The position numbers and the translations under genes were made by a program. Positions 29,596 through 51,729 of a stretch of DNA of 64,000 nt are shown here, piece by piece. The DNA comes from Paucibacter sp. Y2R2-4. Its GTDB lineage: Bacteria; Pseudomonadota; Gammaproteobacteria; Burkholderiales; Burkholderiaceae_C. The stretch's first letter is position 1. Every line of letters starts with the position of its first letter. The stretch spans positions 1,178,001 to 1,242,000 of the forward strand of contig NZ_JAJIRO010000001.1 of NCBI RefSeq assembly GCF_025717535.1. The letters run 5' to 3'. The notes beneath the pieces were generated by a model. It saw nothing but the letters and a program-made list of their open reading frames with translations, ran no database searches and had not been told where the DNA came from.

Positions 29596-30510
29596 ATGCG
29601 CCGCAATCTTGCCCATCATCTCAATGGCCTGCGATTTTTCGAGGCGGCAGCTCGGCATCTGTCCTTCACCCGCGCGGCTGAAGAGTTATGCGTGACCCAG
29701 GCGGCGGTCAGCCATCAGGTACGCGCACTGGAAGAAGCCCTCTCCCTGCAACTCTTCGAGCGGCGCCCTCGGCAAGTCAATTTGAGCCCGGCGGGCACGC
29801 GCTTGTTGGCGGTCTTGTCCAGCAGTTTTGATCACATCGAGTCGGTGCTTGATGAGCTGAAGCGCCAAGGTAGCAGCAGCTTGCAATTGGCGGTGACGCC
29901 TTCGTTTTCCAGCCGCTGGTTGATGCCGCGCTTGCCGCATTTCTGGGGTGCGCACCCGGATATCGAGCTGCACCTGCACCATACCGCGCAGGCAGACGCA
30001 CTCGCTCGCGGCGCTGCAGACGCCGCCATCATCTGGACCCACGGCAGTCCGGAGAAGCCGGGGCGCCTCTGGGCGCAACGTCTCTTCGGCACCGCCTTGA
30101 GCCCGGTGTGTGCTCCAGGGCTGGCGCGGCCTGATGCCCCCCTCAGCGAGCCTGAAGCTTTGCGCCATTACCCCTTGCTGCATGAAGACAGCTTTGAGGA
30201 CTGGCAGCGCTGGATGCAGGCCGCCGGCGTGGCCGATGCGCGGGTGCAGCAGGGCCCCGTCATCGACGACAGCAATGCCTTGCTGATGGCCGCCATGAGT
30301 GGCCGCGGTGTGGCCCTGGGCCGCCTGGCCTTGGTGGCCGATGACTTGCGCAGTGGCCGTTTGATACGGCCTTTCGAATGCAGCATCGAAGCCGATGGTG
30401 CCTATTGGCTGATCGCCTCGCAGACGACGGCCGAACAGCCCCGCTTCAAGGCGCTGGCGGCTTTTCTTCAAGCAGAAGCGAAAACGCCAACCGAGCACCA
30501 TCCGGGCTGA
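29596..30510 (+). CDS. LysR-family regulator, GcvA-like
   Basis: A 304-residue LysR regulator whose N-terminal helix-turn-helix reads LRFFEAAARHLSFTRAAEELCV-TQAAVSHQVRALE, the pattern of the GcvA subgroup. The effector domain follows from about residue 95. It is divergent from the SGNH hydrolase gene across 170 nt, so that gene and its own promoter are the natural targets. I chose ATG 29596 because it begins the conserved helix; the open frame extends 186 nt upstream without protein-like sequence. The last 65 nt overlap the end of the opposite-strand lipoprotein gene, which is unusual but possible for convergent genes. Confidence 0.88.
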   Translation: MRRNLAHHLNGLRFFEAAARHLSFTRAAEELCVTQAAVSHQVRALEEALSLQLFERRPRQVNLSPAGTRLLAVLSSSFDHIESVLDELKRQGSSSLQLAVTPSFSSRWLMPRLPHFWGAHPDIELHLHHTAQADALARGAADAAIIWTHGSPEKPGRLWAQRLFGTALSPVCAPGLARPDAPLSEPEALRHYPLLHEDSFEDWQRWMQAAGVADARVQQGPVIDDSNALLMAAMSGRGVALGRLALVADDLRSGRLIRPFECSIEADGAYWLIASQTTAEQPRFKALAAFLQAEAKTPTEHHPG

Positions 30511-31489
30511 GCGCCAAGTTCTTGATCACCCCGCCCAAATGGCGCAGGTCGGCAAAGGGCTTGAACCCCGTGCCCGGCCGGCCGTCCCAACGCAGCAGGC
30601 GCCCACCTTGCGGCAAGAGCAATGAGCCATCGGGCAACCAGACAAAGTAATGGCTGCGACCGGCCTCGCCCTCGCCGGCCGGGGGCAACGGCAAGTCGAT
30701 CAATGCCTGAGGCTGTGCGTCCTGCAGGCCCATGGCCATCAAGACCCAGCGCTGCGGGTCTGGCTTGTCGATGAAGCTGACGCGATCGCCCTGCGGCATG
30801 CGCGCAAAACCACTGCCCGGCTTCTCGCTAAGCAGCACCTGTCGGCCGATCATGCGATCTTCCAACACGAGCCGATGTGCATTGCGCTCGGCTTGATCGT
30901 CCACCAAGAAGAGCGCCATTTGCTGCGCGTTGATCCAGGCGTGGTAGCCCACCCTCAGCGTCGGCGTGAGGGCTTCGAGGGGCTGGCCGTCCCAGCCAAA
31001 TCTCCATACCGGCGGCGCCTTGGCCTCGGCGCCATAAAAAGGGTCGGGGCTTTGCACTCGAATGACGGAGAAGCCTCGCCCATCGGCCATGGGCGTTGGG
31101 GAATACAGGCTCTCCGTGCTTTGGGTGATCGCGCGAGTCTGCGCGCTGACAAAGTCGTAGCGATAGATATTGGGGGTGCCGCTGCGCTGAGAAACGTACA
31201 GCAAGCCGCTCCCGTCCATCAAAAAGGCAGGCTGAAAATTGCTGCCCGGGCCAGACGTGATCTTGATCGGGGCGCCGAGACGGCCGGTAGCCAGATCCAG
31301 GCTGGCCACGTACACAGCGATATTGGGTTCGGTCGCAACCGCATCAGCCGCGGCCACGGGTTTTGCTGTCGGCGCTGGCAAGGGCAGGCTGGCACAAGCG
31401 CTCAACAAGCCCCCCAACACCAGTGCGCCGAAACGGGCCAAGGCCCGCCGGGCAGGAAAGCTGGTGCGTTCGGATCGAAACACGGCCAT
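30446..31489 (-). CDS. Putative lipoprotein with PD40/TolB-like beta-propeller repeats
   Basis: A 347-residue protein with a lipoprotein signal ending GLLSAC (lipidated Cys32). The mature part has beta-propeller features: FQPAFLMDGSGLLYVSQRSGTPNIYRYD, SPTPMADGRGFSVIR and LALSPDGARLAFSL resemble PD40/TolB repeats. Such propellers bind sugars or proteins. ATG 31489 has GAGAGG 6 nt ahead and is preferred over ATG 31507. It is the last gene of the sugar locus, 82 nt after the cupin gene, and may be part of its operon. Its role there is unknown. Confidence 0.75.
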   Translation of the reverse strand: MAVFRSERTSFPARRALARFGALVLGGLLSACASLPLPAPTAKPVAAADAVATEPNIAVYVASLDLATGRLGAPIKITSGPGSNFQPAFLMDGSGLLYVSQRSGTPNIYRYDFVSAQTRAITQSTESLYSPTPMADGRGFSVIRVQSPDPFYGAEAKAPPVWRFGWDGQPLEALTPTLRVGYHAWINAQQMALFLVDDQAERNAHRLVLEDRMIGRQVLLSEKPGSGFARMPQGDRVSFIDKPDPQRWVLMAMGLQDAQPQALIDLPLPPAGEGEAGRSHYFVWLPDGSLLLPQGGRLLRWDGRPGTGFKPFADLRHLGGVIKNLALSPDGARLAFSLLLEEKPPAP

Positions 31490-31571
31490 CGCCGCCCTCT
31501 CTTCCATGTTTCAGTGGTTTGAATCGGACCGGACCGAGGCGGCAGGACCGCCTCGGCCGGCCTCAAGTCCC

Positions 31572-31958
31572 TCAGCCTTCGTCCTTGAAACCAAAGGCAC
31601 GCTCATGCACATAGACCAGCTTGCAGTCTTGCAGGTACTGGGCATCGTGGATGCGGCCCGCGGCCACATAGCCGGTTTCGCCTTCGCTCAAGGTCAGCGG
31701 CGGGCCATCGGCATGCAAGGCGCCGTCCGCGTCGCGGGTGAAGAACTGGATGCGCATCTGCCCTTGCACCACCACCGTCATGTCATTGCCGGGGTGGCTG
31801 TGCGGCGGCTCGCTGCTGCCGGCCTGCCAGCGCTCCAGCATCACCTCGACACCATCGGGATTGGCCGGAACGCAGGTGCGCACGGTGAAGCCCTCAGGTG
31901 CACCGGGTGCTTCAACGTGGTGGGACCAGATCGAACTGTCGTGTTGCTGTGTTGTCAT
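31572..31958 (-). CDS. Small cupin-domain protein
   Basis: A 128-residue single-domain cupin with the metal-site blocks PPHSHPGNDMTVVVQGQM (His-x-His and Glu-equivalent region) and VAAGRIHDAQY. Such cupins may be dioxygenases, isomerases or sugar epimerases. The only informative hint is its position, 15 nt after the TonB-receptor gene and before the PD40 lipoprotein gene. It has no signal peptide. A specific activity cannot be assigned. Confidence 0.8.
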   Translation of the reverse strand: MTTQQHDSSIWSHHVEAPGAPEGFTVRTCVPANPDGVEVMLERWQAGSSEPPHSHPGNDMTVVVQGQMRIQFFTRDADGALHADGPPLTLSEGETGYVAAGRIHDAQYLQDCKLVYVHERAFGFKDEG

Positions 31959-31973
31959 GAGAACTCCGTTTCC

Positions 31974-34604
31974 TTAGAAGGCCATGGTCAGCGACAACTG
32001 GGCGTTACGGCCCAGGATAGGCCGTGCATAGTAGTAGTCACTGCCGCCCGGTGCTTGCACAAAGCCTGAGCGCGGGTTGCCTTCGGTCAGACCGATGGTG
32101 TTGGTGAGATTTTGCACGCTGGCGTTCAGGGAGAGCTTGGGCGTCAGCTCATAGCGCAGGCTCAAATCCCAGGTTTGATAAGCCGGCAGCTTGACCGAGT
32201 TGGACACATCGGCGTATCGCAGGCCCATATGGTGATAGCTCAGGGTCAGTTCGCCCTTGTTGTCATTGAAGTAGACCGTCGGTGCGATGGTGTAGTTCAG
32301 CTCCGGCGTGCGCTCCGGGCGGTTGCCGTTCCAGCTGGTGGCTTCTTTGCGCAGGTCTTCCAGCTCTTGGCCCGATCCACGCAGCACGCGCAAATCATTG
32401 ACGCTGAAACGCGAGCGCTGCACCACGCCCACGGCATTCAGCTGCAGCCACTTCAGCGGACGCCAGTTCATTTCGAACTCCAGGCCGTTGGACTTCACGC
32501 CTTGCAGCATCTCCACCTGCGAGTCCCCCACCTCGGCGCCATTCGGGTCACCCTGGAAGTCGGCCTTGTAATAGGTGAAGGTGCCGGTGAAGCCGCGCGT
32601 TTGGTAGCGCAAGCCGGCTTCGGCGAACTGAATGCGGGTGACCGGCAGGTCGCCAGTGGCCTGATAGCTCTTGGCGTAGCGGCCATAGACGGCCATATTG
32701 TCATTCAGCAGGTAGTTGCCACCGACGGTCCAGGACGGTTCGCGCCAGTCATTGCGGATGCTCTCGTATTGGCCGTTGGTCGGATAGGCCCAGCGGTTGT
32801 TGGCAATGATGTTGTCCACATCGCAGGCGGCATCGCCGAGCTTGTCGACATCGCAGCCGGGCTTGAAGGCGCCAGGGATGGCGGTGTACTCGTTGTAGCC
32901 GCTGCGCTGCTCGCGGTATTTGTACTGTTCGATGCGCAGGCCAGCATCCAGACGCAGGCGCTCGTTCACCTTGTACTCGTTGTTCAGGTAGATGGACGTC
33001 GAGTTGTTGTGAAAGGTCGAGTTGCCATCGCCCCAGGTGGAGTACTCGCGCACGCCGTTCTCGGTGTAGGCGCCGACCACTTTGCCGGCGGGGTCCAAGG
33101 CCACGATATCCATGCGGCGGGCGTGCGTGCGCACATCGGTGACGAAGCGCGCGGTGGCCGGGCTGCCGTTGGGGCCGATGCGGGTGTCAAAGGCCAAGAG
33201 GCCCACCGTCAGGCTGTTGTTCGGCGTATTCCAGCTCAGCGACAAATCGTTCACCGCCTCGCGCTGCGCCTGCTTGTCGGCCTGCAGCACATTGTCGGAA
33301 AGCAGGCCATTGCCATTCAGCGCATTCAGCTGGGCTGGGGTCGACAAGATCTCGCCGGTGGACACCACCCGCAGCGCCGGTGTGCATTGCCCGCCACAAG
33401 AACCGGCGAAGCGATCCAGCATTTCCTGCACATAGCCGAATTTGGCCGGGTCGAGCCGGTTGACGGCCGGGCGCAGGCTGTTGTTGCTGGAGGAGAAGAC
33501 CACGCTGGCGGTCACATCGCTGTCGGTGTAGCGGCCCTTGGAGCGCAGGGTCAGCTCTTTGCTCAAGGCTTTCTCGAAGCTATAGCCAATGGCCGTGGCC
33601 TTGACGTGATAGCCCTCACGCGAATCGTTCAGCTGGCTGAAGCTGCCGGGCACCAGCGAGGTGCGCACGTTTTGCACGCCCGAATCCAGGCCGATCATGG
33701 TGCCGTAATTGGCATTGATGCCTGGCAGACTGCGCGGATTGTCTTTGCCCTGCACGGGGATCGGCAGGTAGAAGGTGTTGTGGTCATCGACCAGCTTGGC
33801 GTTGATGCTCCACTCGCCGCCCTCGATCTTCTTGCCCACATGGGCGCGCAAGGTGCCGCCGAAGTTGGCGGTGAACTCGGGGTTACGCACGCCGTCGTCG
33901 CGGCGATAAAAGCCCGAGGCACCGGCAAACCATCCATCGCCCAGGCCGCCAGCGTAGCGCAGATCAATGCGGCGGGTTCCGTAGTCTGAAGTCGTTAGGC
34001 GCACCGCGCCTTCTGGCGCGCCCTTGTTGCGGTAGGTGAGGAAGTTGATGGTGGCGCCCGCGCCATTGGTGGTCAGAATGGCCGAGGTCCCGCCGCGCAC
34101 CGCCTCCAGGCGGTCAATGCCGACTTCCTGCTTGACCAGGCCGTCGGCCGTCCAGCTGGGGTAGTAAAACACCGGCAGCCCGTCTTCTTGCAGCTGCACC
34201 CAGCGCTGGTTGCCGCCCGACATGCCGCGCACCGAGTAGTTGTTCGACATCTCGCCGCCCGAGGCTTCCACATACATACCGGGGATCAGCTCCATGGCCT
34301 CGGCGGTGGAGCGCGGCGCTTTGCGATCCAGCTCGTCACGGTCGGCCACAGTCACGGCCACCGAGCTGTCGCGCAGCGTGCGGTTCAGGCCGGTGCTGCC
34401 GGTGACGACCACCCGGTCGAGCTGGCTGGCTTCATCTTTCTTGTCGGCCTTGCTGTCGGCCGTGGCGGCTTGCTGCGCCAACGCGGGCACAACGCCCAGG
34501 CACAGCAGTGCAGCCATACAAATAGCGCTGGGCTGCAGGCGGCGCGGCAGTCGCGCTGCGGGGCTTGAGGAAAAGGTCTGCCCGATCTTGCTTGTCTTGC
34601 TCAT
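31974..34604 (-). CDS. TonB-dependent outer-membrane receptor of the sugar locus
   Basis: An 876-residue TonB-dependent receptor with a signal peptide (AICMAALLCLGVVPALAQ). A TonB-box-like stretch DRVVVTGS is followed by the plug (ELDRKAPRSTAEAMELIPGMYVE, RGMSGGNQRW) and the barrel. It ends RNAQLSLTMAF with the C-terminal Phe of outer-membrane proteins. ATG 34604 is preferred because GGAG lies 6 nt ahead; ATG 34616 and 34607 are in frame. Placed between glucokinase and the cupin gene, it probably imports the glycoside handled by the locus. It is unlike the Caulobacter-type receptor at 13.6 kb. Confidence 0.92.
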   Translation of the reverse strand: MSKTSKIGQTFSSSPAARLPRRLQPSAICMAALLCLGVVPALAQQAATADSKADKKDEASQLDRVVVTGSTGLNRTLRDSSVAVTVADRDELDRKAPRSTAEAMELIPGMYVEASGGEMSNNYSVRGMSGGNQRWVQLQEDGLPVFYYPSWTADGLVKQEVGIDRLEAVRGGTSAILTTNGAGATINFLTYRNKGAPEGAVRLTTSDYGTRRIDLRYAGGLGDGWFAGASGFYRRDDGVRNPEFTANFGGTLRAHVGKKIEGGEWSINAKLVDDHNTFYLPIPVQGKDNPRSLPGINANYGTMIGLDSGVQNVRTSLVPGSFSQLNDSREGYHVKATAIGYSFEKALSKELTLRSKGRYTDSDVTASVVFSSSNNSLRPAVNRLDPAKFGYVQEMLDRFAGSCGGQCTPALRVVSTGEILSTPAQLNALNGNGLLSDNVLQADKQAQREAVNDLSLSWNTPNNSLTVGLLAFDTRIGPNGSPATARFVTDVRTHARRMDIVALDPAGKVVGAYTENGVREYSTWGDGNSTFHNNSTSIYLNNEYKVNERLRLDAGLRIEQYKYREQRSGYNEYTAIPGAFKPGCDVDKLGDAACDVDNIIANNRWAYPTNGQYESIRNDWREPSWTVGGNYLLNDNMAVYGRYAKSYQATGDLPVTRIQFAEAGLRYQTRGFTGTFTYYKADFQGDPNGAEVGDSQVEMLQGVKSNGLEFEMNWRPLKWLQLNAVGVVQRSRFSVNDLRVLRGSGQELEDLRKEATSWNGNRPERTPELNYTIAPTVYFNDNKGELTLSYHHMGLRYADVSNSVKLPAYQTWDLSLRYELTPKLSLNASVQNLTNTIGLTEGNPRSGFVQAPGGSDYYYARPILGRNAQLSLTMAF

Positions 34605-34864
34605 CATGATCTCCATGTCTCCAGAGGTTTTGCTTTTAGGAAGGAAGGTAGGAACGAGAGAAAAAAACGGACGAAAAAAGCCACCCAGCACGCGGCCGGA
34701 ATTGCGCTGCGCGTTGCGGTTTTGCTTGCTTAAAAACGGTCGCGCCTCGTCCAGGCGCGCCGCGTCAGGTGGCCCCCACGCTGACGCCAAAAGGCGTCAG
34801 CCCCCCCGAGGGGGCGGCAGGAAGCACTTGGGGCGGCCCTGCGCTTGCTTCCAGTGAGGCGGCG
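34605..34864. other. Intergenic region ahead of the TonB receptor with a Burkholderiales-type repeat
   Basis: No gene is seen. At 34780-34801 lies GCTGACGCC-AAAA-GGCGTCAGC, a perfect 9-bp hairpin, directly followed by a C-run/G-run pair (34801-34814) that can form a second hairpin. Intergenic elements of the type C-run/hairpin/G-run are frequent in Burkholderiales genomes, which is recalled rather than checked here. It may attenuate transcription between glucokinase and the receptor. Confidence 0.5.
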
Positions 34865-35881
34865 TCATAGCGCTCGACTCGCACCCAGCAGGGCCGGCGG
34901 CTCCTGGCTGGCAATCACATAACTGGGCACGGCGGCCAGATAACCCGCCATGCGACCCTTGGCTTCAAAGCGCTCGCGAAAGCGCGAAGCCCGAATCCAT
35001 TCACGCCCGAGTCGCGGCACGATGCCGCCGCCGATGTAAACCCCGGCACGCGCGCCCAGCGACAGCACCAGGTCGCCGGCCACATCGCCCAAGAAGGCGC
35101 CAAACAGATCCAAGGCCTCGACGCACTGCGCTTGGCTTTGCGCCTGTGCCTGTTCGATCACCGCGGCGGGCGTGGTGCCCGCGGGCAATGTGCAGCCGTC
35201 CAGCTCGCACAAGGCCTCGACCAGATGCACCAGGCCCGGCCCCGACAACACCCGCTCGGCCGACACATGACCAAAGCGCCGCGCCAGCTGCTGCACCAGG
35301 CGGTGCTCGCGCTCGCTGTGAGCCGCCAGGCTGACATGCCCACCCTCCGTTTGCAGCGCCGTCCATTGCCGGTCGCCGGTGGACACCAAACCCGAGACGC
35401 CCAGGCCGGTACCAGGGCCCAGCAAGGCCAGGGTCCCAAAGTCGGCAACGGCGGCCACAGCACTCGGCCCACCGCAATGCCAAAAGTCCGCTTGCGGCAG
35501 CGCCGGAATCGCCAGCGCCAAGGCGGTGAAGTCATTCATCACCACCAGTCTTTGCAGGTCCAGCTCGCTGCGCAGCGCTTTAGCCGAGAAGCTCCAGTCA
35601 CGATTGGTTAGGCAAATCTGGTCTTGCAAGACCGGCGTGGCCACGCCCAAAGCCGCTTGGCTGGGCGGCGCCAGTCCGTCACGACCCAGGCCGCTCAGGT
35701 AATCCTGTATGCAAGCGGTCAGGCTTGGAAAGTCCGCGCAAGGCATGACCCGCACCCGCTCGATGCGCGCCCCTGCCCCGCCCTGCCAAGCCAGGCGCAC
35801 ATTGCTGCCGCCCACATCACCCAGTAGGCTGGGGCCGGCCTGCGCCAAGCCGCGATGAGGTTTGACACCAATCTCAATCAT
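34865..35881 (-). CDS. glk: Glucokinase (ROK-unrelated Glk type)
   Basis: It phosphorylates glucose to glucose 6-phosphate. The protein has 338 residues. The ATP-binding motif LGDVGGSN is near residue 20, followed by FTALALA, the GPGTGLGVSGL loop, EGGHVSLA and GGGIVPR toward the C-terminus, all of the proteobacterial Glk family. ATG 35881 has AGGAG/AAGGA upstream. It follows the third oxidoreductase gene after 12 nt. Its presence means that glucose, or something converted to it, is the end product of the locus. Confidence 0.93.
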   Translation of the reverse strand: MIEIGVKPHRGLAQAGPSLLGDVGGSNVRLAWQGGAGARIERVRVMPCADFPSLTACIQDYLSGLGRDGLAPPSQAALGVATPVLQDQICLTNRDWSFSAKALRSELDLQRLVVMNDFTALALAIPALPQADFWHCGGPSAVAAVADFGTLALLGPGTGLGVSGLVSTGDRQWTALQTEGGHVSLAAHSEREHRLVQQLARRFGHVSAERVLSGPGLVHLVEALCELDGCTLPAGTTPAAVIEQAQAQSQAQCVEALDLFGAFLGDVAGDLVLSLGARAGVYIGGGIVPRLGREWIRASRFRERFEAKGRMAGYLAAVPSYVIASQEPPALLGASRAL

Positions 35882-35893
35882 TCCTTGATCTCC

Positions 35894-37057
35894 TCAAGTC
35901 GTTTCAACGCGCGTCCAGATGCCACCGGCGCGATGACTGCGCAAGGCTGCGTCCACCAAGAGCAATCCCTCCAGGCCATCGGCCACCTGCGGCAGGCCCA
36001 AGCTCTCCGCCGCTGGCGCACGCCCTTGCTGGCGCGCCCGGATGTGCTCAGCGGCCTCGCGGTAAAGCTGGGCAAAGGCCTCCAGATAGCCTTCCGGATG
36101 GCCGGGAGGCAAGCGGGTGGCGGCGCGCGCGGCGGCGCTGTCCAGCCGGCCGCGTGTCAGGATCTCGCTGCTGCCGCCCTGGCGGCTCAGGCGCAGCTGA
36201 TTGGGCTGCTCTTGGTCAAACTCCAAACCGCCTTTGCTGCCGTAGAGGCGCAGGCGCAAGGCGTTCTCGCAGCCGCTGGCCACCTGGCTGGCCCAGAGCG
36301 CGCCGCGAGCACCGCCGGCAAAACGCAGCAGCAACTGGGCGTTGTCGTCGAGGCGCCGGCCCGGCACAAAGCTGCTCAGCTCGGCACACACGGATGCGGC
36401 ACGCAAGCCGCTGACAAAACAGGCCAGCTGATAGGCATGCGTGCCAATATCGCCGAGCGCCCCGGCGGGCCCGGCCAGGGCCGGGTCGCAGCGCCAGCTG
36501 GCCTGCTTTTGGCCCTGCTGCTCCAGCGGCTCGGCCAACCAGTCTTGGGCATATTCCATCTGCACCAGGCGCAGCTCGCCCAGGACGCCGGCGCGCACCA
36601 ACTCACGTGCATGGCGCACCGCCGGGTAGGCGCTGTAGTTGTAGGTCACCGCCAAGAACCGCTGGCGCGCCTCAGCCAAGGCCGCCAGCTCGCGCCCCTC
36701 GCGCACCGAGATGGCCAGCGGCTTGTCGCAGATCACATCGATGCCGGCCTGCAAAAAAGCCTGGGCCACCGGCGCGTGCAAATGGTTGGGTGTGACGATG
36801 GTCACCGCCTCGATGCCATCGGGCCGGCCCGCCTCTCGCCTGGCCATCTCGCGCCAGTCGGCGTAGCAGCGCTCGCTGGCCAGGCCCAGAGCGGCACCGC
36901 TGGCTGCGCTGCGCTCGGCCGTGCTGGAGAAGGCGCCAGCCACCAGCTCGAACTCACCGTCCAAACGCGCCGCGATACGGTGCACCGCGCCAATGAAAGC
37001 CTCTTGGCCGCCACCCACCATGCCCAGACGCAAGGGGCGTTGAAAGCTGGCACTCAT
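35894..37057 (-). CDS. Gfo/Idh/MocA oxidoreductase (third in the locus)
   Basis: An NAD(P)-dependent sugar oxidoreductase of 387 residues. The Rossmann region starts RLGMVGGGQEAFIGAVHR, with the catalytic-lysine motif CDKPL and the DIGTH motif (GDIGTHAYQL) of the family. It overlaps the TIM-barrel gene by 4 nt, so the two are translationally coupled, and together they resemble the oxidoreductase/isomerase pairs in oxidative glycoside pathways. The position of oxidation on the sugar is unknown. It has no signal peptide. Confidence 0.9.
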   Translation of the reverse strand: MSASFQRPLRLGMVGGGQEAFIGAVHRIAARLDGEFELVAGAFSSTAERSAASGAALGLASERCYADWREMARREAGRPDGIEAVTIVTPNHLHAPVAQAFLQAGIDVICDKPLAISVREGRELAALAEARQRFLAVTYNYSAYPAVRHARELVRAGVLGELRLVQMEYAQDWLAEPLEQQGQKQASWRCDPALAGPAGALGDIGTHAYQLACFVSGLRAASVCAELSSFVPGRRLDDNAQLLLRFAGGARGALWASQVASGCENALRLRLYGSKGGLEFDQEQPNQLRLSRQGGSSEILTRGRLDSAAARAATRLPPGHPEGYLEAFAQLYREAAEHIRARQQGRAPAAESLGLPQVADGLEGLLLVDAALRSHRAGGIWTRVETT

Positions 37058-40968: not shown

Positions 40969-40973
40969 GCAAA

Positions 40974-41810: not shown

Positions 41811-42832
41811 GGGCGTATTCCCTTCTTGCCGGGTTTGGTCTCATCGGCCTTGACCTCGTTCTCATAAAAGACCCAGAGGCTGGAGAAGCGCATCACCGAG
41901 GCCGAGAGCAGCAAGATCAGCGCAAACATCAGCCAAGACATGGCCGAGGCATAGCCCATGTCGAAGTACTTGAAGGCGGTGTCGTAGATGTACATGGCGA
42001 GCATGTAGGTGGACTTCATCGGCCCGCCGCCGGTCAGCAACAAGGCCATGGTCAGCTGCTGGAAGGCCGCGATCAAGGTGGTGACCAAATTGAACAAAAG
42101 CACCGGCGACAGCAGTGGCAGCGTGATGTGGGTGAACTGCTTGAGCTTGGAGACCCCACTCATCTCGGCCGCCTCGTACAGCTCCACCGAAATGCCCTTG
42201 AGCCCGGCCAGAAAGACCAACATCGTGCCGCCCAAACTCCACAGACTGGCGATCACCACCGCGCTCATGGCCCAGTCTGGGCTGCCCAGCCAGTCGATGG
42301 CCGGCAGGCCCACGAGCGAGAGCAGATAGTTCAAAAGCCCGTACTCGCGGCTGTAGATCCAGGACCAGATGCTGACCAGGGCAACGCCTGAAAGCATGGA
42401 GGGCAGATAGAACACGGTGCGGAAGAAGCCCTCACCCCGGCAGCGCCGGTTCAGCAGCAGGGCCAGGCCCAGGGCGCCTGCCAGATGCGTAGGTACGTAG
42501 AACAGCGCGAAACGCGCGGTCACGCCCAAGGCCTCCCAGAAGTCCTCGTCCTGCGTCAGGATGCGCTGGTAGTTCTGCAGGCCCACAAAGCGCTCGCCGC
42601 CCATCAAGGGCCAATCAAAGAAGCTGATGTAGAGCGAGTACAGCAGCGGCCCGACGGTGAAGGCCAAGAAACCCAGCACCCAAGGGGCGATGAAGAGATA
42701 GGGCAAGACCTGCCCCCAAGAGCGCGAGCGCCCTTGCTGGGTTTGCGCCGGCTGTTGCTGTTGCTGCTGCTTGGCCGCATTCATAGGCATCAGCATTTCG
42801 CTTTGGGCATCCATATGTTGAGACTTGTGCAT
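41807..42832 (-). CDS. Sugar ABC transporter permease, MalF type
   Basis: A 341-residue permease with six or seven hydrophobic segments (first: QVLPYLFIAPWVLGFLAFTVGPLLY). The EAA motif VELYEAAEMSGVSKLKQFTHITLPLLSP couples it to the ATPase. The N-terminus holds a short glutamine-rich stretch (QQQQQQ). The start is uncertain, since ATG 42832, 42814 and 42784 are all in frame. It precedes the MalG-type permease with a 4-nt overlap. Confidence 0.94.
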   Translation of the reverse strand: MHKSQHMDAQSEMLMPMNAAKQQQQQQPAQTQQGRSRSWGQVLPYLFIAPWVLGFLAFTVGPLLYSLYISFFDWPLMGGERFVGLQNYQRILTQDEDFWEALGVTARFALFYVPTHLAGALGLALLLNRRCRGEGFFRTVFYLPSMLSGVALVSIWSWIYSREYGLLNYLLSLVGLPAIDWLGSPDWAMSAVVIASLWSLGGTMLVFLAGLKGISVELYEAAEMSGVSKLKQFTHITLPLLSPVLLFNLVTTLIAAFQQLTMALLLTGGGPMKSTYMLAMYIYDTAFKYFDMGYASAMSWLMFALILLLSASVMRFSSLWVFYENEVKADETKPGKKGIRP

Positions 42833-42854
42833 GGTCAGCGGTGTTCAGCGGTCT

Positions 42855-44147
42855 TCAGCGCAGACGCCGCTCGGCCTTGAGGGCAGCACGGTCCAGAATG
42901 GCCGCGCTGTCGCCCTGCTTGCTGAGAAAGACCTCTTGGATGGCGTCGCGAACGACATCCTGAGCTCGCATCCAGCGCGGGTTCAGCAGATGGGCCGGGC
43001 TCTCCTTCATGCTCTCGGCCATGGCATAAAAAGGCCGCACCAAGGGGTCCTGTGCCAAGCCCTGCTCGGCCGCTACGCTGAGCAAGACCGGCAGGTCGTT
43101 GCCGCGCAGACGCACCGCCTCGGCGCTGCTGAAGAACTGAATGAAGTCCCAGGCGAGATCTTTTTGCTGGCTGCTCTTGGCCATGGCCAGGGCCGAGACG
43201 CTGAGCACGCTTTGCGCCGGTCGGCCCTGAAAGCTGGGCAGACCCACCACGCCAAAGCGCTTGCGGTCTTGCGCCAGCTCCAGGCGGAAGGCGCTGCCGT
43301 CCAGCAGCATGGCCACCTTGTCGGAGACAAACATCTGGCGCTGATTGCGCCCATCGCCCACGCCCAGCGTGGCCACCGTGTCGCTGCGCAAAAGCTCCTG
43401 CAAATAGGCGAACATGGCCTTGCTCTCGGGGCTGTTCAGATGGCCTTGCACACTGACGCCATCAGCCCCCAACATGCGGCCGCCAGCGCTCCAGAGATAG
43501 CTTTGGAAGTCATAGGGATCCGGGTTCACATCCAGGCCAAAACCGTAGGCCTTGGCGGCCGGATTGCGCAGGCGCTGGGCCATCTGGCGCAGCTCGCCCC
43601 AAGTCCAGCCTTCTTGCGGATAGGCCAGGCCGGCGCGGTCCAGCATGTCTTTGTTGTAGTAGATGACTTGGGCGGTGAAGCCGGCCGGCACGCCGTAGAT
43701 GCGCGACTGCTTTTGGTCCGCATCCCAGACGGTGGAGAAGCGCCACAAGCCGGGCACGAAGTCGCCCTTGTCGATGCGCGCATCGCGGGCCAGGTAGGCG
43801 TCCAGTGGCTCCAGCACCCGCTGGTACTGCGGGAAGTTCCACATATACATGACATCGGGCGGATTGCCCGCGCCAAAAGCGGCCGAGAGCTTTTGGTTGT
43901 AGCCGCCGCCATAGGCCTCCACCTGCACTTTGACGCCGGGATGGCGGGCCTCGAAAGCGGCGGCAATGCGCTGCTGGATCAAGAGGCTTTCGCTGCCGTC
44001 CCAGGTGGCGAAGCGCAAGACGCGTGGCGCCGGCGCGGTCTGCTCAGGGTTGGCGCCCGCACTCGCCCACCAGGCGCCCGCACCGAGCAGGCCCAGCACA
44101 GCCAGAATGCCCAGCTTGGCGCGTTGGGAGCCTAGGATTGGCTTCAT
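42855..44147 (-). CDS. Sugar ABC transporter substrate-binding protein
   Basis: A 430-residue family-1 carbohydrate-binding protein with a hydrophobic signal peptide (GILAVLGLLGAGAWWASAG). The mature part begins LRFATWDGSESLLIQQRIAAAFEARHPG. Family segments include NPPDVMYMWNFPQYQ and VPAGFTAQVIYYNKDMLDRAGL. It is likely a glycoside- or oligosaccharide-binding protein, and its partner genes encode the permeases and the ATPase. It overlaps the ATPase gene by 4 nt. Confidence 0.94.
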   Translation of the reverse strand: MKPILGSQRAKLGILAVLGLLGAGAWWASAGANPEQTAPAPRVLRFATWDGSESLLIQQRIAAAFEARHPGVKVQVEAYGGGYNQKLSAAFGAGNPPDVMYMWNFPQYQRVLEPLDAYLARDARIDKGDFVPGLWRFSTVWDADQKQSRIYGVPAGFTAQVIYYNKDMLDRAGLAYPQEGWTWGELRQMAQRLRNPAAKAYGFGLDVNPDPYDFQSYLWSAGGRMLGADGVSVQGHLNSPESKAMFAYLQELLRSDTVATLGVGDGRNQRQMFVSDKVAMLLDGSAFRLELAQDRKRFGVVGLPSFQGRPAQSVLSVSALAMAKSSQQKDLAWDFIQFFSSAEAVRLRGNDLPVLLSVAAEQGLAQDPLVRPFYAMAESMKESPAHLLNPRWMRAQDVVRDAIQEVFLSKQGDSAAILDRAALKAERRLR

Positions 44148-45280
44148 TGCGCCAAGGCCTTTTCCACCGCTGCGCTCAAGCGCCGCGTCAAGGCGCGGCC
44201 ATCGGCTGCAAACACATGCAGATGTTCCAGCTCCAGCCCCAAGCCCAGTTGCTCACCACGCTGCACCAGCTGCGAGCCGTCAACGCAGACCGTCAACATT
44301 TCGCCCGAGGGCAGCTTCAGATGCACCATGCTTTGGGCGCCGAGTCGCTCCACTGACTGCACCTCAGCGCTGAGTTGCGCCGCCGCATCGTCCGGCGCCA
44401 AAAGGCGGATGTGCTCGGGGCGTATGCCCAGGGTCAGCGCCGCGCCTTGCGGCGCTAGCTCGGCCAAAGCAAGGGTTGAAAGCCGGGCCTCGGCCAGGGC
44501 GCCGGGCACGCTCAGCTGCAAAAGACCGTCGTGCACGCCCGAGGACGCCGCCGCCAAAAAGTTCATGCGCGGCGTGCCGATGAAGCCGGCCACAAACAGA
44601 TCGGCAGGCCGGTGGTACAGCTCCAGCGGCCGGCCCACCTGGGCGATGCGGCCTTGGTTCAAGACCACCACCTTGTCGGCCAGGGTCATGGCCTCCACCT
44701 GGTCGTGGGTGACGTAAATCATCGTGGCTTGCAGCTGCTGGTGCAGCCGGGCCAGCTCAGCGCGGGTGTTCTCGCGCAGGGCGGCGTCCAAATTGGAGAG
44801 CGGCTCGTCGAACAAAAACACCCGCGGGTTGCGCACGATGGCGCGGCCAATCGCGACCCGCTGCCGCTGTCCGCCGGAGAGCTGCTTGGGCTTGCGCTCC
44901 AGCAAGGCTTCCAGTTGCAACATGCGCGCCGCCTCGGCAATGCGGGTCTCGATCTCGCCCTTGGAAAATCGCCGAAGCGAGAGGCCAAAGGACAGGTTCT
45001 TGCGCACCGTCATATGCGGATAGAGCGCGTAGTTCTGGAACACCATGGCCAGGTCACGCTCGGCCGGGGCCACATCGTTCATGCGCTCGCCGCCGATCAA
45101 GAGCTCACCGCCCTGCACCGCCTCCAGGCCGGCGATGCAACGCAAAAGCGTGGACTTGCCGCAGCCCGAGGGGCCGAGAAAGCAGACGAATTCCCGGTCG
45201 GCAATGTCCAGATCGATGCCTTTGAGCACATCGACCGGTCCGTAACTCTTGCGCAAGCCGCGCAGCGATAGATCAGCCAT
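44144..45280 (-). CDS. Sugar ABC transporter ATP-binding protein (MalK/UgpC type)
   Basis: A 378-residue ATPase with Walker A GPSGCGKST near residues 36-44, signature LSGGQRQRVAIGRAIV, Walker B VFLFDEPLSNLD and the switch His in VTHDQVEA. A C-terminal TOBE-type extension (MNFLAAASSG to LTRRLSAAVEKA) is typical of MalK-like ATPases, which energise sugar import and may interact with regulators. It begins the transporter block, 29 nt after the TIM-barrel gene. Confidence 0.97.
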   Translation of the reverse strand: MADLSLRGLRKSYGPVDVLKGIDLDIADREFVCFLGPSGCGKSTLLRCIAGLEAVQGGELLIGGERMNDVAPAERDLAMVFQNYALYPHMTVRKNLSFGLSLRRFSKGEIETRIAEAARMLQLEALLERKPKQLSGGQRQRVAIGRAIVRNPRVFLFDEPLSNLDAALRENTRAELARLHQQLQATMIYVTHDQVEAMTLADKVVVLNQGRIAQVGRPLELYHRPADLFVAGFIGTPRMNFLAAASSGVHDGLLQLSVPGALAEARLSTLALAELAPQGAALTLGIRPEHIRLLAPDDAAAQLSAEVQSVERLGAQSMVHLKLPSGEMLTVCVDGSQLVQRGEQLGLGLELEHLHVFAADGRALTRRLSAAVEKALAQ

Positions 45281-45309
45281 GGTGAGGTGGGGGCTCCTGT
45301 TCGCTGGTT

Positions 45310-46095
45310 TCAGTTCAACAACAAGGTTTGCAGATAGGCCTGCCCTGCCGCCGCCGTGCGGGCCGGCTGGCTGGGCTGGTCATGCTCAACGATGAAGGTG
45401 CTGAGCACCTGACGCAGCCAGGGCAGCCAGGCCGGCCAATCCAAGCGCCCTTCGCCCAGCGTGGCCCAGCCTTGCTCAACTTGAGCCAGCTCAGCGTCGG
45501 GTTTGGCCAGGTCTTTCACATGCACCGACTGCAGTCGATCTGCATAGCGCTGCAGCCAAGGCAGTGGCGACTCGCCAGCACGCGCCACCCAGGCCACATC
45601 GGGCTGCCAACGCAGGGCTGGTGCAGCCTCCAACACCGTTTCAAGCACCGTACGGCCGTCTTCAGCCAGCCGCTCAAACTCGAAGGCATGGTTGTGATAG
45701 GCCAGCGTGATGCCTTGCGACTGCAGGCTCAGCGCATGGCTTTGCAGAGTCGCCGCCAGCGCCAGCCAGCCTGCACGGGTCGTCGGCCGCTCGGCCTCGT
45801 CCAGCCAGGGCATCACCAGTTGGCTGCAACCGCTGCCCTTCAAGGCGGCGAGCACTTCCTCCATGCGCTCGGCCAGATCGCTCATCTCCACATGCATGGA
45901 AGCCAGGCCCAGGCCGGAGGCGCGCAGCGTGGCGAGGAAGGCGTCAGCGCTCAGGCCGTGCAGCGCCTCGCTCTCCACCCAGGCAAAGCCGGCTTGGCTG
46001 GCCACTTGCAGGCGAGCGGCCAAGTCACCGGCGCTGCGTACGGTGTAGAGCTGCAGCGCGATGCGCGGCGCATTGATTTTCTTGCTACCGCTCAT
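45310..46095 (-). CDS. Sugar phosphate isomerase/epimerase-type TIM barrel (small form)
   Basis: A 261-residue TIM-barrel protein. It contains YHNHAFEFERL (Glu/His), WQPDVAWVARAG (Asp), SVHVKDLAKPDAEL and FIVEHDQPSQPARTAA (Glu), in the order expected for the family's divalent metal site. It overlaps the oxidoreductase gene upstream by 4 nt. In related loci such enzymes act on keto-glycosides made by the neighbouring oxidoreductases; the reaction is not proven from sequence. It lacks a signal peptide and differs strongly in length from the 368-residue paralogue. Confidence 0.85.
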   Translation of the reverse strand: MSGSKKINAPRIALQLYTVRSAGDLAARLQVASQAGFAWVESEALHGLSADAFLATLRASGLGLASMHVEMSDLAERMEEVLAALKGSGCSQLVMPWLDEAERPTTRAGWLALAATLQSHALSLQSQGITLAYHNHAFEFERLAEDGRTVLETVLEAAPALRWQPDVAWVARAGESPLPWLQRYADRLQSVHVKDLAKPDAELAQVEQGWATLGEGRLDWPAWLPWLRQVLSTFIVEHDQPSQPARTAAAGQAYLQTLLLN

Positions 46096-47261
46096 GCGCT
46101 TTGCTCCTGGGCCGCAGGCTTGGCCTGGAATTGCAGGCTTTCGGCAAAGCCGGGGTTGACGGGGTCAGGTCTTGCGCAACGGGTGCGCAGCGAAACCGGC
46201 GCCTTTTTCTCTGCAGCGCGCAGCACCGCATCCATGGCCTCCAAGACATGCAAGGCCATCTCGCCATTGGCACGGTGCTGGCGGCCACTGCGCAAGGCCT
46301 CGGCCATATCGGCCACACCCAGGCCGCGATGCCGACCGGTGAAGACTTGCGGCGTCTGCGACTGCCAATCGCCATCGGCCTCGCAGCTCTCAAGCGCCCC
46401 GCCAAACTGATTCGGATCGGGCAGCACCAGGCTGCCGCGCTCGCCATACAACTCAATATGGCTGCTCTTGTGCTTCCAGACATCAAAGCTGGTGCTGAGC
46501 GTGATGAAGGCGCCCTGCTCAAACTCCAAGCCTGCCACCAGATGGGTCGGCGTCTCGACCTGGATGCTCTCGCCCTGGCGCGGGCCGCGTGGAATCTGCC
46601 GGATCGGCCAGCTGGTGTGCGCCATGCCATTGACCCGGGTGATGGGCCCCAGCAGCTGCACCAGCTGGGTCAGGTAGTACACGCCCATATCCATCAAAGG
46701 GCCGGCACCGGGGCGGTAGAAGAAGGCGGGGTTGGGATGCCAGTCATCCGGGCCGCGCTCCATCATGGTGGCCTGGCCGGCCACGATGCGGCCCAGCTGC
46801 CCGCCATCCACCAGGGTGCGCGCCAGCTGGCCAGCGCCGCCCAAGAAGGTGTCGGGCGCGCAGCCGATGCGCAGGCCTTGCGCGCTGGCCAGTTCCATCA
46901 AGGCCGCGCCATCAGCGAAGCTGCCGGCCAGCGGCTTCTCGGTATAGAGATGCTTGCCGGCCTTCAGCACCGCCTCGCCCACCGCGCGGTGCGCTTGCGG
47001 CGGGGTCAGGTTGATGATGATTTGAGCCTCACCCGCTAACAACTCATCCACGCTGAAGGCGGGCACAGCCTGGGCTTGAGACTGCGCTGCGGCCGCCTCG
47101 GGTCGCGCATCGGCCACGCCGACCAGGCGCAGATTGCCAAACTGCGCCAGACCCGCCACATAGGCCGGGAAGATGTCGCCGGCGCCGATGATGGCCACCG
47201 GCGTTGCGGCTGCCTGCATGGCCTTGCCCTCGGGCTTGAGATGGAGATCGTTCATCTTCAT
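46092..47261 (-). CDS. Gfo/Idh/MocA oxidoreductase (second in the locus)
   Basis: A 389-residue NAD(P)-dependent oxidoreductase. The Rossmann fold begins VAIIGAGDIFPAYVAGLAQFGN, with TEKPL carrying the catalytic Lys and MDMGVYYLTQL matching the second family motif. Several in-frame starts exist; ATG 47261 overlaps the preceding fusion gene by 4 nt. It is coupled at both ends, so its product should be made in step with the fusion oxidoreductase and the small TIM-barrel enzyme. Confidence 0.9.
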   Translation of the reverse strand: MKMNDLHLKPEGKAMQAAATPVAIIGAGDIFPAYVAGLAQFGNLRLVGVADARPEAAAAQSQAQAVPAFSVDELLAGEAQIIINLTPPQAHRAVGEAVLKAGKHLYTEKPLAGSFADGAALMELASAQGLRIGCAPDTFLGGAGQLARTLVDGGQLGRIVAGQATMMERGPDDWHPNPAFFYRPGAGPLMDMGVYYLTQLVQLLGPITRVNGMAHTSWPIRQIPRGPRQGESIQVETPTHLVAGLEFEQGAFITLSTSFDVWKHKSSHIELYGERGSLVLPDPNQFGGALESCEADGDWQSQTPQVFTGRHRGLGVADMAEALRSGRQHRANGEMALHVLEAMDAVLRAAEKKAPVSLRTRCARPDPVNPGFAESLQFQAKPAAQEQSA

Positions 47262-49300
47262 GCCGGCGATCCTTGCTCGGCCAGGTCCAGCCAGGCCATT
47301 TCCTCGGGCGTCAATTGCACCGTCAAGCCGCGCATGGAGCTGGCGGTCTCGGCAATCGAGCGCGGCCCAATCAGGCTGAAGGCCGGGAATTGCTGGCCCA
47401 GCACCCAGGCCAGAGCAATATTGATGGCCTGCACGCCCTTCTCGGCCGCCAACTTCTGGGCGCGAGCACGGCGCTCAAAGTTCGCAGCGCTGTACCAGCA
47501 GCGCACCAGCTCTTCGTCCTCGCGCAGATCCGGGCCGGCCCGGTCGGTGAAGAAGCCACGTGCTTGCGAAGACCAGGCAAACAAGGCCAGGCCCTGCTCG
47601 GCCAGCAGCTGGCGCGAAGCCGGGTCTCCCGCCGACACACAGCCGCGCCAGATGGGTGCCTGCATGCGCGCCAGGCTGAGCTGGTTGTTCAGCAAAGAGA
47701 AGCCTTGCAAACCCTTGGAGGCCGCGTAGGCGTTTGCTTCCATCACCCGCTCAAGCGACCAGTTAGAGCCACCAAAGGCCTGGAAGCGGCCGAGGCGGCG
47801 TTGCTCGTTCAGCGCTTCGACAAACTCGGCCACGGGCACCTCGGGGTTGTCGCGGTGCAGGATGTAGAGATCGGCATGGTCGGTTTGCAGGCGCTCCAGG
47901 CTTTCGGCCAGTTCGCGGCGCATGCCCTCGGGTGTGCAGTTGGGGGTGTGTGCGCCCTTGGCGATCAGCACAATTTCGTCACGGATGCCGCGCGCCTTCA
48001 GCCATTGGCCCAGGATGGCCTCGCTGTGGCCGCCCTCAAAGTCATAGACCCAAGCGGTGTCAAAGGTGTTGCCACCGCGCTCGATGTAGTCGTCAAACAA
48101 GGCTGCGGCATGGGGCAGCGTTTCTTGGTTGTCCACACCCATGATCAGGCGCGACACCTGTTTGCCCTCCAGGCCTGGCACATGGCCATAAGTCATCAGC
48201 GCATCGGCGCGGCGCGCAATCGGCAAGCCGGCCAAGCTCAGGCGCCCTTGCATGGCGGCCTCGGCCTCTTTGGGGTAGCTCAGGCCAATCGCCTGGCGCC
48301 AGCGGTCCATCACCGCCAGATTGCCTAGCGAATCGGCCGGACTCATGGCGGGGTGCGGCACCGCACCGGCCTGCACGGCTTGGGCAAAGACATCGGCCTC
48401 GTAGGCATAGAGCCCGCGGTCGGTGCTGATCGTCCACGTCTGGGTCAGAGCTTCATCCACATACAGCTCGATGCGGCTCTCGCCCGCTTCGGCGCCCGCG
48501 CCGTACCAGGGCTTGGGCACGACCAAGGCGCCCTTGCTACCGCCAATGCGCAGCGACTCTTCTTGCTCAAAGCGCACGGCGGTGCTGAGCTGCGCCACGA
48601 TATTGCCGGGGAAGCGCAAGGTCGCTGTCGCCCATTCATCCACCGGGCCGCTGGCGCTTTGGTACAGCTGGCCCATGGCTTGCAATTCGGTCGGCTCAGC
48701 AAAGGGCAAGTTTCGCGCCACACCGGCGATCAGCCGCGCCATCGACACGGGGTAGCAGCCCACGTCCAAGATGCCGCCGCCAGCCAATGAAGCCTCCCAG
48801 GTGCGCGAACCGGCACGCGGCGTGGAGCTGTAGCAAAAGGACGCCTGGATATGGCGAACATCGCCAATCGTGCCAGCACGCAGCAACTCCAGCAGCTTGG
48901 CCGTTTGCGGCAGACAGCGGTACATGAAGGCTTCCATCAACACGCGGCCGGCACGCTCGGCCTCGTCATAGGCGATCATGGCTTCGGCATGGTTCAAGCC
49001 CAGCGGCTTCTCGCACAGCACATGCTTGCCGGCGCGCAGGGCCTGCACCGTCCAATGCAAATGCTCGGTATGCGGCAGGCCGATGTAGACCGCCTGCACC
49101 GCCGGATCGGCCAGCAAGGCTTGATAGGAGGCATGGGCTTTGGGCGGGCAAGCGGGCGTGCCGTGTTGCTCGGCAAAAGCCTGCGCCTTGGCCGCATCAC
49201 GGCTGGCCACCGCCACCAAAGCGCCACTGTCGGTCTGCTTCAGACCTGCTGCGAAAGCGCCCGAGATGTTCCCGGCGCCGATGATTCCCCAGTTGAGCAT
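47258..49300 (-). CDS. Fusion of Gfo/Idh/MocA oxidoreductase and aldo/keto reductase
   Basis: A 680-residue bifunctional protein. Residues ~1-340 are a Gfo/Idh/MocA oxidoreductase: GAGNISG (8-14), EKPL (97-100) and DVGCYP (179-184). Residues ~380-680 are an aldo/keto reductase with the catalytic tetrad Asp414 (TFDTA), Tyr419 (VYDF), Lys448 (LIAKG) and His482 (ILHRD). Both sets look intact, so both halves may be active. One could oxidise a sugar and the other reduce a keto or aldehyde product, sharing the pyridine nucleotide. It is the first gene of the operon; an operator-like palindrome lies 6-29 nt before the ATG. No signal peptide is present. Confidence 0.9.
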   Translation of the reverse strand: MLNWGIIGAGNISGAFAAGLKQTDSGALVAVASRDAAKAQAFAEQHGTPACPPKAHASYQALLADPAVQAVYIGLPHTEHLHWTVQALRAGKHVLCEKPLGLNHAEAMIAYDEAERAGRVLMEAFMYRCLPQTAKLLELLRAGTIGDVRHIQASFCYSSTPRAGSRTWEASLAGGGILDVGCYPVSMARLIAGVARNLPFAEPTELQAMGQLYQSASGPVDEWATATLRFPGNIVAQLSTAVRFEQEESLRIGGSKGALVVPKPWYGAGAEAGESRIELYVDEALTQTWTISTDRGLYAYEADVFAQAVQAGAVPHPAMSPADSLGNLAVMDRWRQAIGLSYPKEAEAAMQGRLSLAGLPIARRADALMTYGHVPGLEGKQVSRLIMGVDNQETLPHAAALFDDYIERGGNTFDTAWVYDFEGGHSEAILGQWLKARGIRDEIVLIAKGAHTPNCTPEGMRRELAESLERLQTDHADLYILHRDNPEVPVAEFVEALNEQRRLGRFQAFGGSNWSLERVMEANAYAASKGLQGFSLLNNQLSLARMQAPIWRGCVSAGDPASRQLLAEQGLALFAWSSQARGFFTDRAGPDLREDEELVRCWYSAANFERRARAQKLAAEKGVQAINIALAWVLGQQFPAFSLIGPRSIAETASSMRGLTVQLTPEEMAWLDLAEQGSPA

Positions 49301-49305
49301 GATGT

Positions 49306-49329
49306 GTAAATTGAAACGTTATGATTTAC
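49306..49329. promoter_or_regulatory. Candidate LacI-type operator of the sugar operon
   Basis: A 24-bp palindrome: outer arms GTAAAT (49306-49311) and ATTTAC (49324-49329) and a central AACGTT (49315-49320) share the same dyad axis, and 18 of 24 positions are symmetric. The central CG flanked by A's and T's is the usual LacI/GalR pattern. It lies 6-29 nt ahead of the first operon gene. The regulator at 38.2 kb is the likely ligand. Confidence 0.65.
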
Positions 49330-50571: not shown

Positions 50572-50612
50572 CCTCATCTCCATTTGTTTTTGTCCATGGC
50601 CGCAGCCAGCGG

Positions 50613-51728: not shown

Positions 51729-51729
51729 C

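Follow-up and report, generated by a model that had tools for sequence, protein, structure and literature searches.

A candidate glycoside-catabolism operon of Paucibacter sp. Y2R2-4, most likely a variant of the oxidation-elimination pathway

Oxidation, elimination, hydration and reduction have been shown as the successive steps of levoglucosan catabolism (Kuritani et al. 2020, PMC7676230). In Agrobacterium, the purified O-glycoside beta-eliminase AtOGE was shown to split off the aglycone of a 3-keto-glucoside, whereas its H134A variant is inactive; AtOGE shares an operon with AtHYD and a Gfo reductase, and the evidence for hydration and reduction is preliminary (Bitter et al. 2023, PMC10628242). 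In the ycj unit of Escherichia coli an importer stands together with two sugar dehydrogenases, an epimerase/isomerase and a pair of phosphorylases (PMC11543891). Here we analyzed a stretch of 64,000 nucleotides from Paucibacter sp. Y2R2-4 (contig NZ_JAJIRO010000001.1, positions 1,178,001 to 1,242,000 of the forward strand), hereafter the window, which carries a long run of sugar-related genes on its minus strand. We propose, with a probability of about 0.75, that these genes form a LacI-regulated glycoside-catabolism operon working by oxidation, elimination, hydration and reduction.

Gene content and the two TIM-barrel enzymes

A sequence-only reading of the window had described 15 minus-strand genes between positions 30446 and 49300, and the list of open reading frames and Pfam bore out both the genes and their domains (Table 1). 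Pfam recognized three Gfo/Idh/MocA domains, one aldo/keto reductase (AKR), two AP_endonuc_2 TIM barrels, an MGH1-like/GH63 hydrolase, a binding protein, two permeases and a MalK-type ATPase, together with a TonB receptor, a glucokinase, a cupin, a PD40 protein and a LacI regulator. In the direction of transcription the first half consists of GfoAKR, GfoB, TIM2, MalK, the sugar-binding protein (SBP), permease A (permA) and permease B (permB), and is followed by the GH63-like gene, LacI, HYD (TIM1), GfoC, glucokinase (glk), the TonB receptor, the cupin and the PD40 lipoprotein; the short names GfoAKR, GfoB, TIM2, HYD and GfoC were coined for the present analysis. The AKR domain is the C-terminal part of the first gene product, which is hence a fusion.

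HYD shares 241 of 349 residues (69.1%) with PDB entry 8ro4, titled 2-hydroxy-3-keto-glucal hydratase, and TIM2 shares 92 of 242 residues (38.0%) with AtOGE (8bvk). Out of eight AtOGE active-site residues checked, seven are kept in TIM2 (E39, H66, H132, H134, D163, H189 and E233), and these seven positions are the same in all 50 aligned rows, AtOGE included. In the PDB sequence search TIM2 also weakly matched 8tct, 8tcs and 8tcd (40.9-46.9 bits), which we take to be structures from the work on the Bacteroides BT2156-BT2160 3-keto glycan pathway. The assignment of TIM2 as the putative eliminase and of HYD as the putative hydratase of an oxidation-elimination route is well supported by this homology.

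The same proteins bear on inositol or sugar-acid catabolism, in which no glycosidic bond would be cleaved. Gfo and IolE-like folds are common to inositol pathways, and the corresponding models do match weakly (iolE 61.9 and 36.6 bits, cut-off 290; iolG 59.7, 43.4 and 91.8 bits, cut-off 355). These scores lie far under the cut-offs, however; among solved structures the TIM barrels come nearest to a hydratase and an eliminase, and a glucokinase and a GH63-like enzyme are present. Enzymes acting on inositols, which the sequence-only reading had named as the outcome that would speak against it, are thus disfavoured, and we regard this explanation as highly improbable.

In a ycj-like epimerisation, Gfo dehydrogenases and a TIM barrel would turn a rare glycoside into a glucoside by inversion, for the GH63-like enzyme then to hydrolyse, without elimination. 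The E. coli unit is built from the same kinds of parts, namely an importer, paired Gfo proteins, a TIM barrel, glycoside-splitting enzymes, LacI and an outer-membrane protein (PMC11543891), and the operon of one relative, G111, keeps GH63, glk, GfoB, TIM2 and GfoAKR and not HYD and GfoC. Yet neither TIM barrel matched the ycj region at E 1e-4 (tblastn), hydratase and eliminase structures being matched instead, and this scheme has no place for a protein as close to a hydratase as HYD. The ycj matches were limited to the ABC parts (24-51%), YcjW with LacI (22%) and YcjS with the Gfo half of the fusion, GfoA (29%). We consider such an epimerisation unlikely. By model cut-offs or by direct comparison, the genes did not qualify as members of the levoglucosan, inositol, ycj or BT2158 types.

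The oxidation-elimination pathway that we favour would begin with the TonB receptor and the MalK-type ABC importer, which would bring in a glucose-containing glycoside. In the cytoplasm GfoB would oxidise C3 of the glucosyl unit, as its gene context suggests, and the metal-dependent TIM2 would beta-eliminate the aglycone to leave 2-hydroxy-3-keto-glucal, as indicated by homology and the kept active site. By close homology HYD would add water to give 3-keto-glucose, which GfoC, judged by its context, would reduce to glucose, and the glucokinase, going by its family, would form glucose-6-phosphate. Most likely this is a known pathway in a new variant form, with GfoB in the place of a GMC protein and with a fusion and a GH63-like hydrolase added. 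The mechanism first suggested, in which C3 oxidation and elimination release glucose from a glucoside, appears largely right, supported as it is by the TIM-barrel homology and by eliminase neighbourhoods elsewhere; its specific form would be an AtOGE/AtHYD pathway variant in which GfoB is the likely oxidant and the product goes to glucokinase.

The oxidation step and the eliminase neighbourhoods

A search for TIM2 at E 1e-25 across 398 genomes from the phylum gave 41 matches, one of them the window. For the 40 other loci about 9-10 kb was fetched on each side (some stretches being shortened by contig ends), and proteins were counted from 200 bits for GfoB, GMC and GfoA, 250 for HYD and GfoC, 150 for AKR and 90 for the others. 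The GMC query was the Hymenobacter GMC protein of locus L112, and the set holds near-duplicates (L132 and L133 have identical TIM2). GfoB was found in 27 of the 40 loci and GMC in nine, the two together in none. HYD was present in 16 loci, GfoC in nine and GH63 in one; GfoB occurred with HYD in five, all nine GMC-bearing loci also carry HYD, and 38 of 40 have GfoB and/or HYD. Four loci (L128-L131) have neither GfoB nor GMC, and two of these have HYD. Among the 15 genes from GfoAKR to the PD40 lipoprotein Pfam found no GMC domain.

Because GfoB or GMC, and never both, stands near eliminases, GfoB is likely the C3 oxidant, and by this context it is the best candidate for the C3 dehydrogenase. 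Its EKP and DMGVY motifs fit a dehydrogenase, and by general rules an acidic residue that follows the second strand (VADA) presumably suggests NAD+. The chance of zero overlap between GfoB and GMC is 2.6e-6 if the labels are independent, yet the loci are related by descent. In the TIM2 tree, which was midpoint-rooted and in which the program flagged long branches, a 96/91 split places the seven window-lineage proteins with AtOGE and the GMC-associated ones, and 28 other GfoB-associated eliminases on the opposite side. Two separate pairings of TIM2 with GfoB are favoured, not forced, by these sequences. In the GfoB tree row L120 was left out and two outgroups stood on very long branches, and the root was not interpreted. 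GfoB would belong to a Gfo family without close characterised relative that likely substitutes for the GMC oxidase before an O-glycoside eliminase in 27 of the 40 loci sampled; if true, this would help to spot non-hydrolytic glycoside cleavage in genomes.

The proposal of GfoC as 3-keto-glucose reductase rests on its adjacency to HYD; its closest PDB sequence, 3v5n (427.5 bits), is titled 'oxidoreductase' only. GfoC adjoins HYD here, and a homologue does so on plasmids of Phaeobacter, Klebsiella and Hymenobacter. Plasmid pP10_b of Phaeobacter inhibens carries an importer, TIM2 (33%), GfoB (44%), LacI (33%), HYD (67%) and GfoC (55%), and gave no match to the AKR half of the fusion, GH63, glk or TonB. 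On the Klebsiella plasmid a levoglucosan dehydrogenase (LGDH; 749.4 bits, cut-off 650) lies beside HYD (69%) and GfoC (60%), and these homologues may fill the LgdB2 and LgdC steps, which reportedly could not be found in certain strains. The Klebsiella stretch (L110:2246-12233) also has importer genes and a TIM barrel. On the Hymenobacter plasmid a GMC protein is near HYD (71%) and GfoC (45%). Since the pair is seen both beside LGDH and near GMC, HYD and GfoC seem to behave as a portable downstream pair.

The Klebsiella arrangement, with HYD and GfoC beside a true LGDH, also speaks for catabolism of levoglucosan, an anhydrosugar, by the Lgd pathway, which has the same four-step logic (PMC7676230); the LGDH model is moreover the top NCBIfam match of GfoC and GfoB. 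The three Gfo domains reach 129.3, 46 and 65 bits against this model (NF052479, cut-off 650), however, and a TonB receptor and a GH63-like hydrolase would not be expected for an anhydro-monosaccharide, so that we find this explanation very unlikely.

Several observations weigh against the oxidation-elimination pathway proposed here. The best PDB match of GfoB reaches 60.5 bits, so that the first oxidant is assigned by context, and the exclusivity of GfoB and GMC is largely a matter of descent. GfoB is present with no HYD in the stretch in 22 of the 40 TIM2 loci, and two have neither. The marine contig L036 has GfoA, AKR, TIM2 and GfoB but gave no match to HYD, and GfoC scored 50 bits only. The eighth AtOGE residue, E161, is replaced by Q (TIM2 residue 164) in exactly the seven window-lineage eliminases of the 50 rows. 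The name hydratase is that of the PDB title only, a literature search having found no paper on 8ro4. Finally, HYD and GfoC are absent from between LacI and glk in G111, where a pair resembling HYD (36%) and GfoC (55%) lies about 123 kb from the operon.

Conservation, regulation and the added genes

The family sample comprised 200 genomes, the window's own included, and the fusion protein was sought at E 1e-60. It was found in six genomes, the window's own among them, and not in the two same-genus genomes of the sample. In five of the 199 other genomes the genes stand in the same order, which is more than chance would give, with 64-85% identity per protein (69-71% for the GH63-like protein), G111 being the one without HYD and GfoC; at 31%, the match of GfoC in L011 comes from cross-matching with a different Gfo gene. 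Locus L026, whose stretch contains a stop, was dropped from alignment A2. G542 belongs to a different family within the same order, and there the locus is partly reordered (a divergent GfoC, then GfoAKR, GfoB, TIM2, MalK, HYD, SBP, permeases, GH63 and LacI), and no glk or TonB match was found within the fetched 39.7 kb. Because the cupin, TonB receptor and glk are each present in all five family relatives and the PD40 lipoprotein gene was not found in their fetched stretches, the conserved unit would end near position 31572 with the lipoprotein probably outside.

Most genes had also been said to overlap by 4 nt, which is incorrect as only six of the 14 junctions do. Seven further junctions range from -17 to +64 nt, and the gap between glk and the TonB receptor is 257 nt; from GfoAKR to glucokinase, none of the eleven junctions falls outside -17 to +29 nt. 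The 257-nt gap contains a terminator-like hairpin (34759-34741), of a kind for which the scan gave 20 sites against 15.9 +/- 4.2 in shuffles, a weak support, and the TonB receptor gene is possibly a transcription unit of its own. Its plausible start is the ATG at 34607, and a possible start of the GH63-like gene is the ATG at 40968, 5 nt past permB.

The 10-mer AACGTTTCAA was found upstream of the first gene in all seven loci compared (window, five relatives and G542); its distance to the GfoAKR start is 6-10 nt in the window and the relatives, and 106 nt in G542. The pattern of the operator-like palindrome (49308-49327), which was written after the site was seen, has one match in the window against 0.01 expected from shuffles, and the AACGTTTCAA 10-mer with one mismatch has four against 1.73 expected. 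Because these one-mismatch matches are not rarer than chance, the support for AACGTTTCAA is its position kept across genomes. LacI may bind this site.

The GH63-like protein belongs to family PF22422 and no signal peptide was seen by eye. It stayed below the cut-offs of the models for glucosylglycerate hydrolase (NF047898, 49.0 bits, cut-off 550) and YgjK (NF007525, 47.4 bits, cut-off 625). No glycoside phosphorylase was found among the 15 genes, PF17167 reaching 18.7 bits in the GH63-like protein (cut-off 27). In nine homologues 29 D/E/W/H/Y positions are invariant, the relatives' frames in this comparison being the longest open reading frames, some with false N-terminal extensions. Homologues occur in three of the 398 phylum genomes, the window's own included, and in 69 plasmid records, 53 of them from Sinorhizobium. 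The Sinorhizobium meliloti pSymB locus (L169), with importer, GH63, LacI and beta-galactosidase, shares the order MalK-SBP-permA-permB-GH63-LacI with the window (permB 66%, permA 55%, MalK 56%, SBP 46%, GH63 43% and LacI 42%), whereas the window permeases are 25-33% identical to those of four other eliminase loci, far under the pSymB match. Neither the eliminase and hydratase nor the Gfo proteins were matched in the 21.7-kb pSymB stretch; no paper on this locus turned up under guessed gene names. The hydrolase would probably provide a second, hydrolytic route, or cut an alpha-linked unit from a longer substrate, and the oxidation-elimination route would be joined to a GH63-like hydrolase in one operon here. 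The view that both routes in one unit are unusual holds in part: a GH63-like gene stands near the eliminase in a single one of the 40 other phylum loci, besides the five family relatives, but the E. coli ycj unit already mixes importer, dehydrogenases, epimerase/isomerase and phosphorylases (PMC11543891).

The fusion has the motifs EKP (97-99) and DVGCY (179-183), and an SRD motif in GfoA presumably suggests NADP(H), again by general rules. In the named plasmid collection it matched 204 records at E 1e-40, 194 of them over at least 80% of the query, including 125 from Rhizobium and 65 from Sinorhizobium. Scanning named bacterial contigs confirmed 581 loci, of which the best 80 were considered; the AKR half exceeded 100 bits in 25 of these 80. 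At three named rhizobial loci the fusion ends a run of helix-turn-helix regulator and ABC sugar importer genes and is the sole enzyme there. Ten fusion loci (nine of family f51, one of f55) showed no TIM2, GfoB or HYD in about 8 kb on each side (6.4 kb in total for L163), and nine of the ten have a MalK-type ATPase. Of the ten neighbours examined on four contigs from that scan, most are unrelated (DNA polymerase III alpha, PhoH, sulphite reductase); L025 has a GH5-like gene and a LacI gene, and in Bacillota the fusion has a different company: an esterase-like, aldose-epimerase, SDR or AraC gene. We tried to derive the role of the fusion from these neighbours, and no common substrate emerged from the loci compared; a literature search found no paper on a Gfo-AKR fusion.

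The two halves are separate neighbours in the marine alphaproteobacterial L036 and in Mesobacillus (L068), where a GfoB match (46%) lies about 6 kb away, and they are separate neighbours in reverse order on the Chloroflexi contigs L045 and L047. At L036:4235-13898 a GH4 gene faces an operon of importer, aldolase, GfoA, AKR, TIM2 and GfoB. That the same two domains are found fused, split and split in reverse order suggests a joint reaction. We would guess that the fusion pairs an oxidation with a reduction of a sugar, by epimerisation or isomerisation, in a redox-neutral conversion of one sugar into another. The two domains occur together in several phyla and, in the loci examined, mostly outside the elimination pathway. 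In all, the operon looks as if it may have arisen by the joining of three parts, an importer/GH63/LacI block, a block for oxidation and elimination, and the fusion gene.

The upstream block and comparison with known systems

A block of gcvPA, gcvPB, NAD-kinase-like and SDR genes (54758 down to 49774) precedes the operon in the window, in all five relatives and in G542. In what appears to be the same 200-genome family sample, gcvPA of at least 82% identity is present in all six fusion-bearing genomes and in none of the 194 others; at E 1e-60 it was found in 11 genomes, the other five matches being 34-49% identical. In three operon-less genomes checked separately, gcvPA (E 1e-60) and SDR (E 1e-80) were missing. 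The palindrome GAAACGTTTC lies shortly before the gcvPA start in the five relatives (L010:5117, L012:4567, L014:5463, L016:4637 and L018:5491), with no exact match at this place in the window or G542. The kinase-like protein matches 11 plasmid records, four of which were inspected: it occurs with gcvPA and gcvPB, and an SDR nearby, on Rhodococcus and Gemmobacter plasmids, with both gcvP genes and without SDR in Sphingomonas, and without gcvP genes in Peptoclostridium. Because the block is found on plasmids with no sugar importer or eliminase annotated in these four 13-kb stretches, it is, judged by gene content, a cassette of its own. Joint inheritance through linkage alone would explain its co-occurrence with the operon, and a functional link is possible. 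It is doubtful that operon and block form a single catabolic island, some 23 kb long, for a glycoside whose aglycone contains nitrogen or is special in another way. In such an island C3 oxidation and elimination would free glucose, the SDR and GcvP-like decarboxylase would handle the aglycone, and the fusion would be a single-chain cofactor-recycling epimerase feeding non-glucose units. Further upstream, the window encodes a ricin-B-type beta-trefoil lectin domain protein (56085-56936, minus strand).

Table 1 Features of the operon and of the upstream block (window positions)
Feature	Position	Strand	Evidence
GfoAKR, N-terminal Gfo/Idh/MocA and C-terminal aldo/keto reductase, 680 aa	47258..49300	-	Pfam, alignment with relatives
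GfoB, Gfo/Idh/MocA dehydrogenase, proposed glycoside 3-dehydrogenase (first step)	46092..47261	-	Pfam; eliminase neighbourhoods
TIM2, O-glycoside beta-eliminase-like TIM barrel	45310..46095	-	8bvk 150.5 bits
MalK/UgpC-type ABC ATPase	44144..45280	-	Pfam, NCBIfam
ABC sugar-binding protein (SBP)	42855..44147	-	Pfam, PDB sequence search
ABC permease A	41807..42832	-	Pfam
ABC permease B	40974..41810	-	Pfam
GH63/MGH1-like hydrolase	39226..40968	-	PF22422 168.3 bits (cut-off 27), PF03200 30.4 bits
LacI-family regulator	38157..39242	-	Pfam
HYD, 2-hydroxy-3-keto-glucal hydratase homologue	37054..38160	-	8ro4, E 8e-174
GfoC, proposed 3-keto-glucose reductase	35894..37057	-	Pfam; homologue adjoins HYD on plasmids
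Glucokinase (glk)	34865..35881	-	TIGR00749 273.1 bits, cut-off 225.45
TonB-dependent outer-membrane receptor	31974..34607	-	Pfam
Small cupin	31572..31958	-	Pfam; kept in 5/5 family relatives
PD40 propeller lipoprotein	30446..31507	-	Pfam
Operator-like palindrome upstream of GfoAKR, putative LacI site	49308..49327	-	Pattern scan, cross-genome position
SDR oxidoreductase, upstream block	49774..50583	-	Pfam
ATP-NAD-kinase-like protein, upstream block	50613..51881	-	PF01513 44.3 bits
GcvPB homologue, upstream block	51730..53361	-	NF003346 576.7 bits, cut-off 441
GcvPA homologue, upstream block	53358..54758	-	NF001696 460.6 bits, cut-off 364

Among known systems, the Bacteroides BT2156-BT2160-type 3-keto glycan pathway is alike in its general chemistry. 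The window differs from it in that the models were far under their cut-offs or unmatched (BT_2158 46.7 and 27.5 bits, cut-off 750; BT_2159 19.3 bits, cut-off 650; GfoB no match at E 0.001). The E. coli ycj unit resembles the window in its importer, Gfo dehydrogenases, TIM barrel, LacI, outer-membrane protein and enzymes that split glycosides directly; it differs in that its TIM barrel is an epimerase, without a match here, and in that splitting is by phosphorylases. The Lgd system of Bacillus smithii (PMC7676230, PMC10066097) likewise has the four steps, Gfo and TIM-barrel enzymes, an ABC importer and LacI, whereas the window has no dehydrogenase at the LGDH cut-off. With the GlycDH-AtOGE-AtHYD-Gfo operon of Agrobacterium tumefaciens (PMC10628242) the locus shares homologues of the eliminase and the hydratase and a Gfo gene next to the latter, and it keeps the metal-site residues and H134 of AtOGE. 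Unlike that operon it has GfoB and no GMC domain among its 15 genes, and it adds an ABC importer, a TonB receptor, a glucokinase, a GH63-like hydrolase and the Gfo-AKR fusion.

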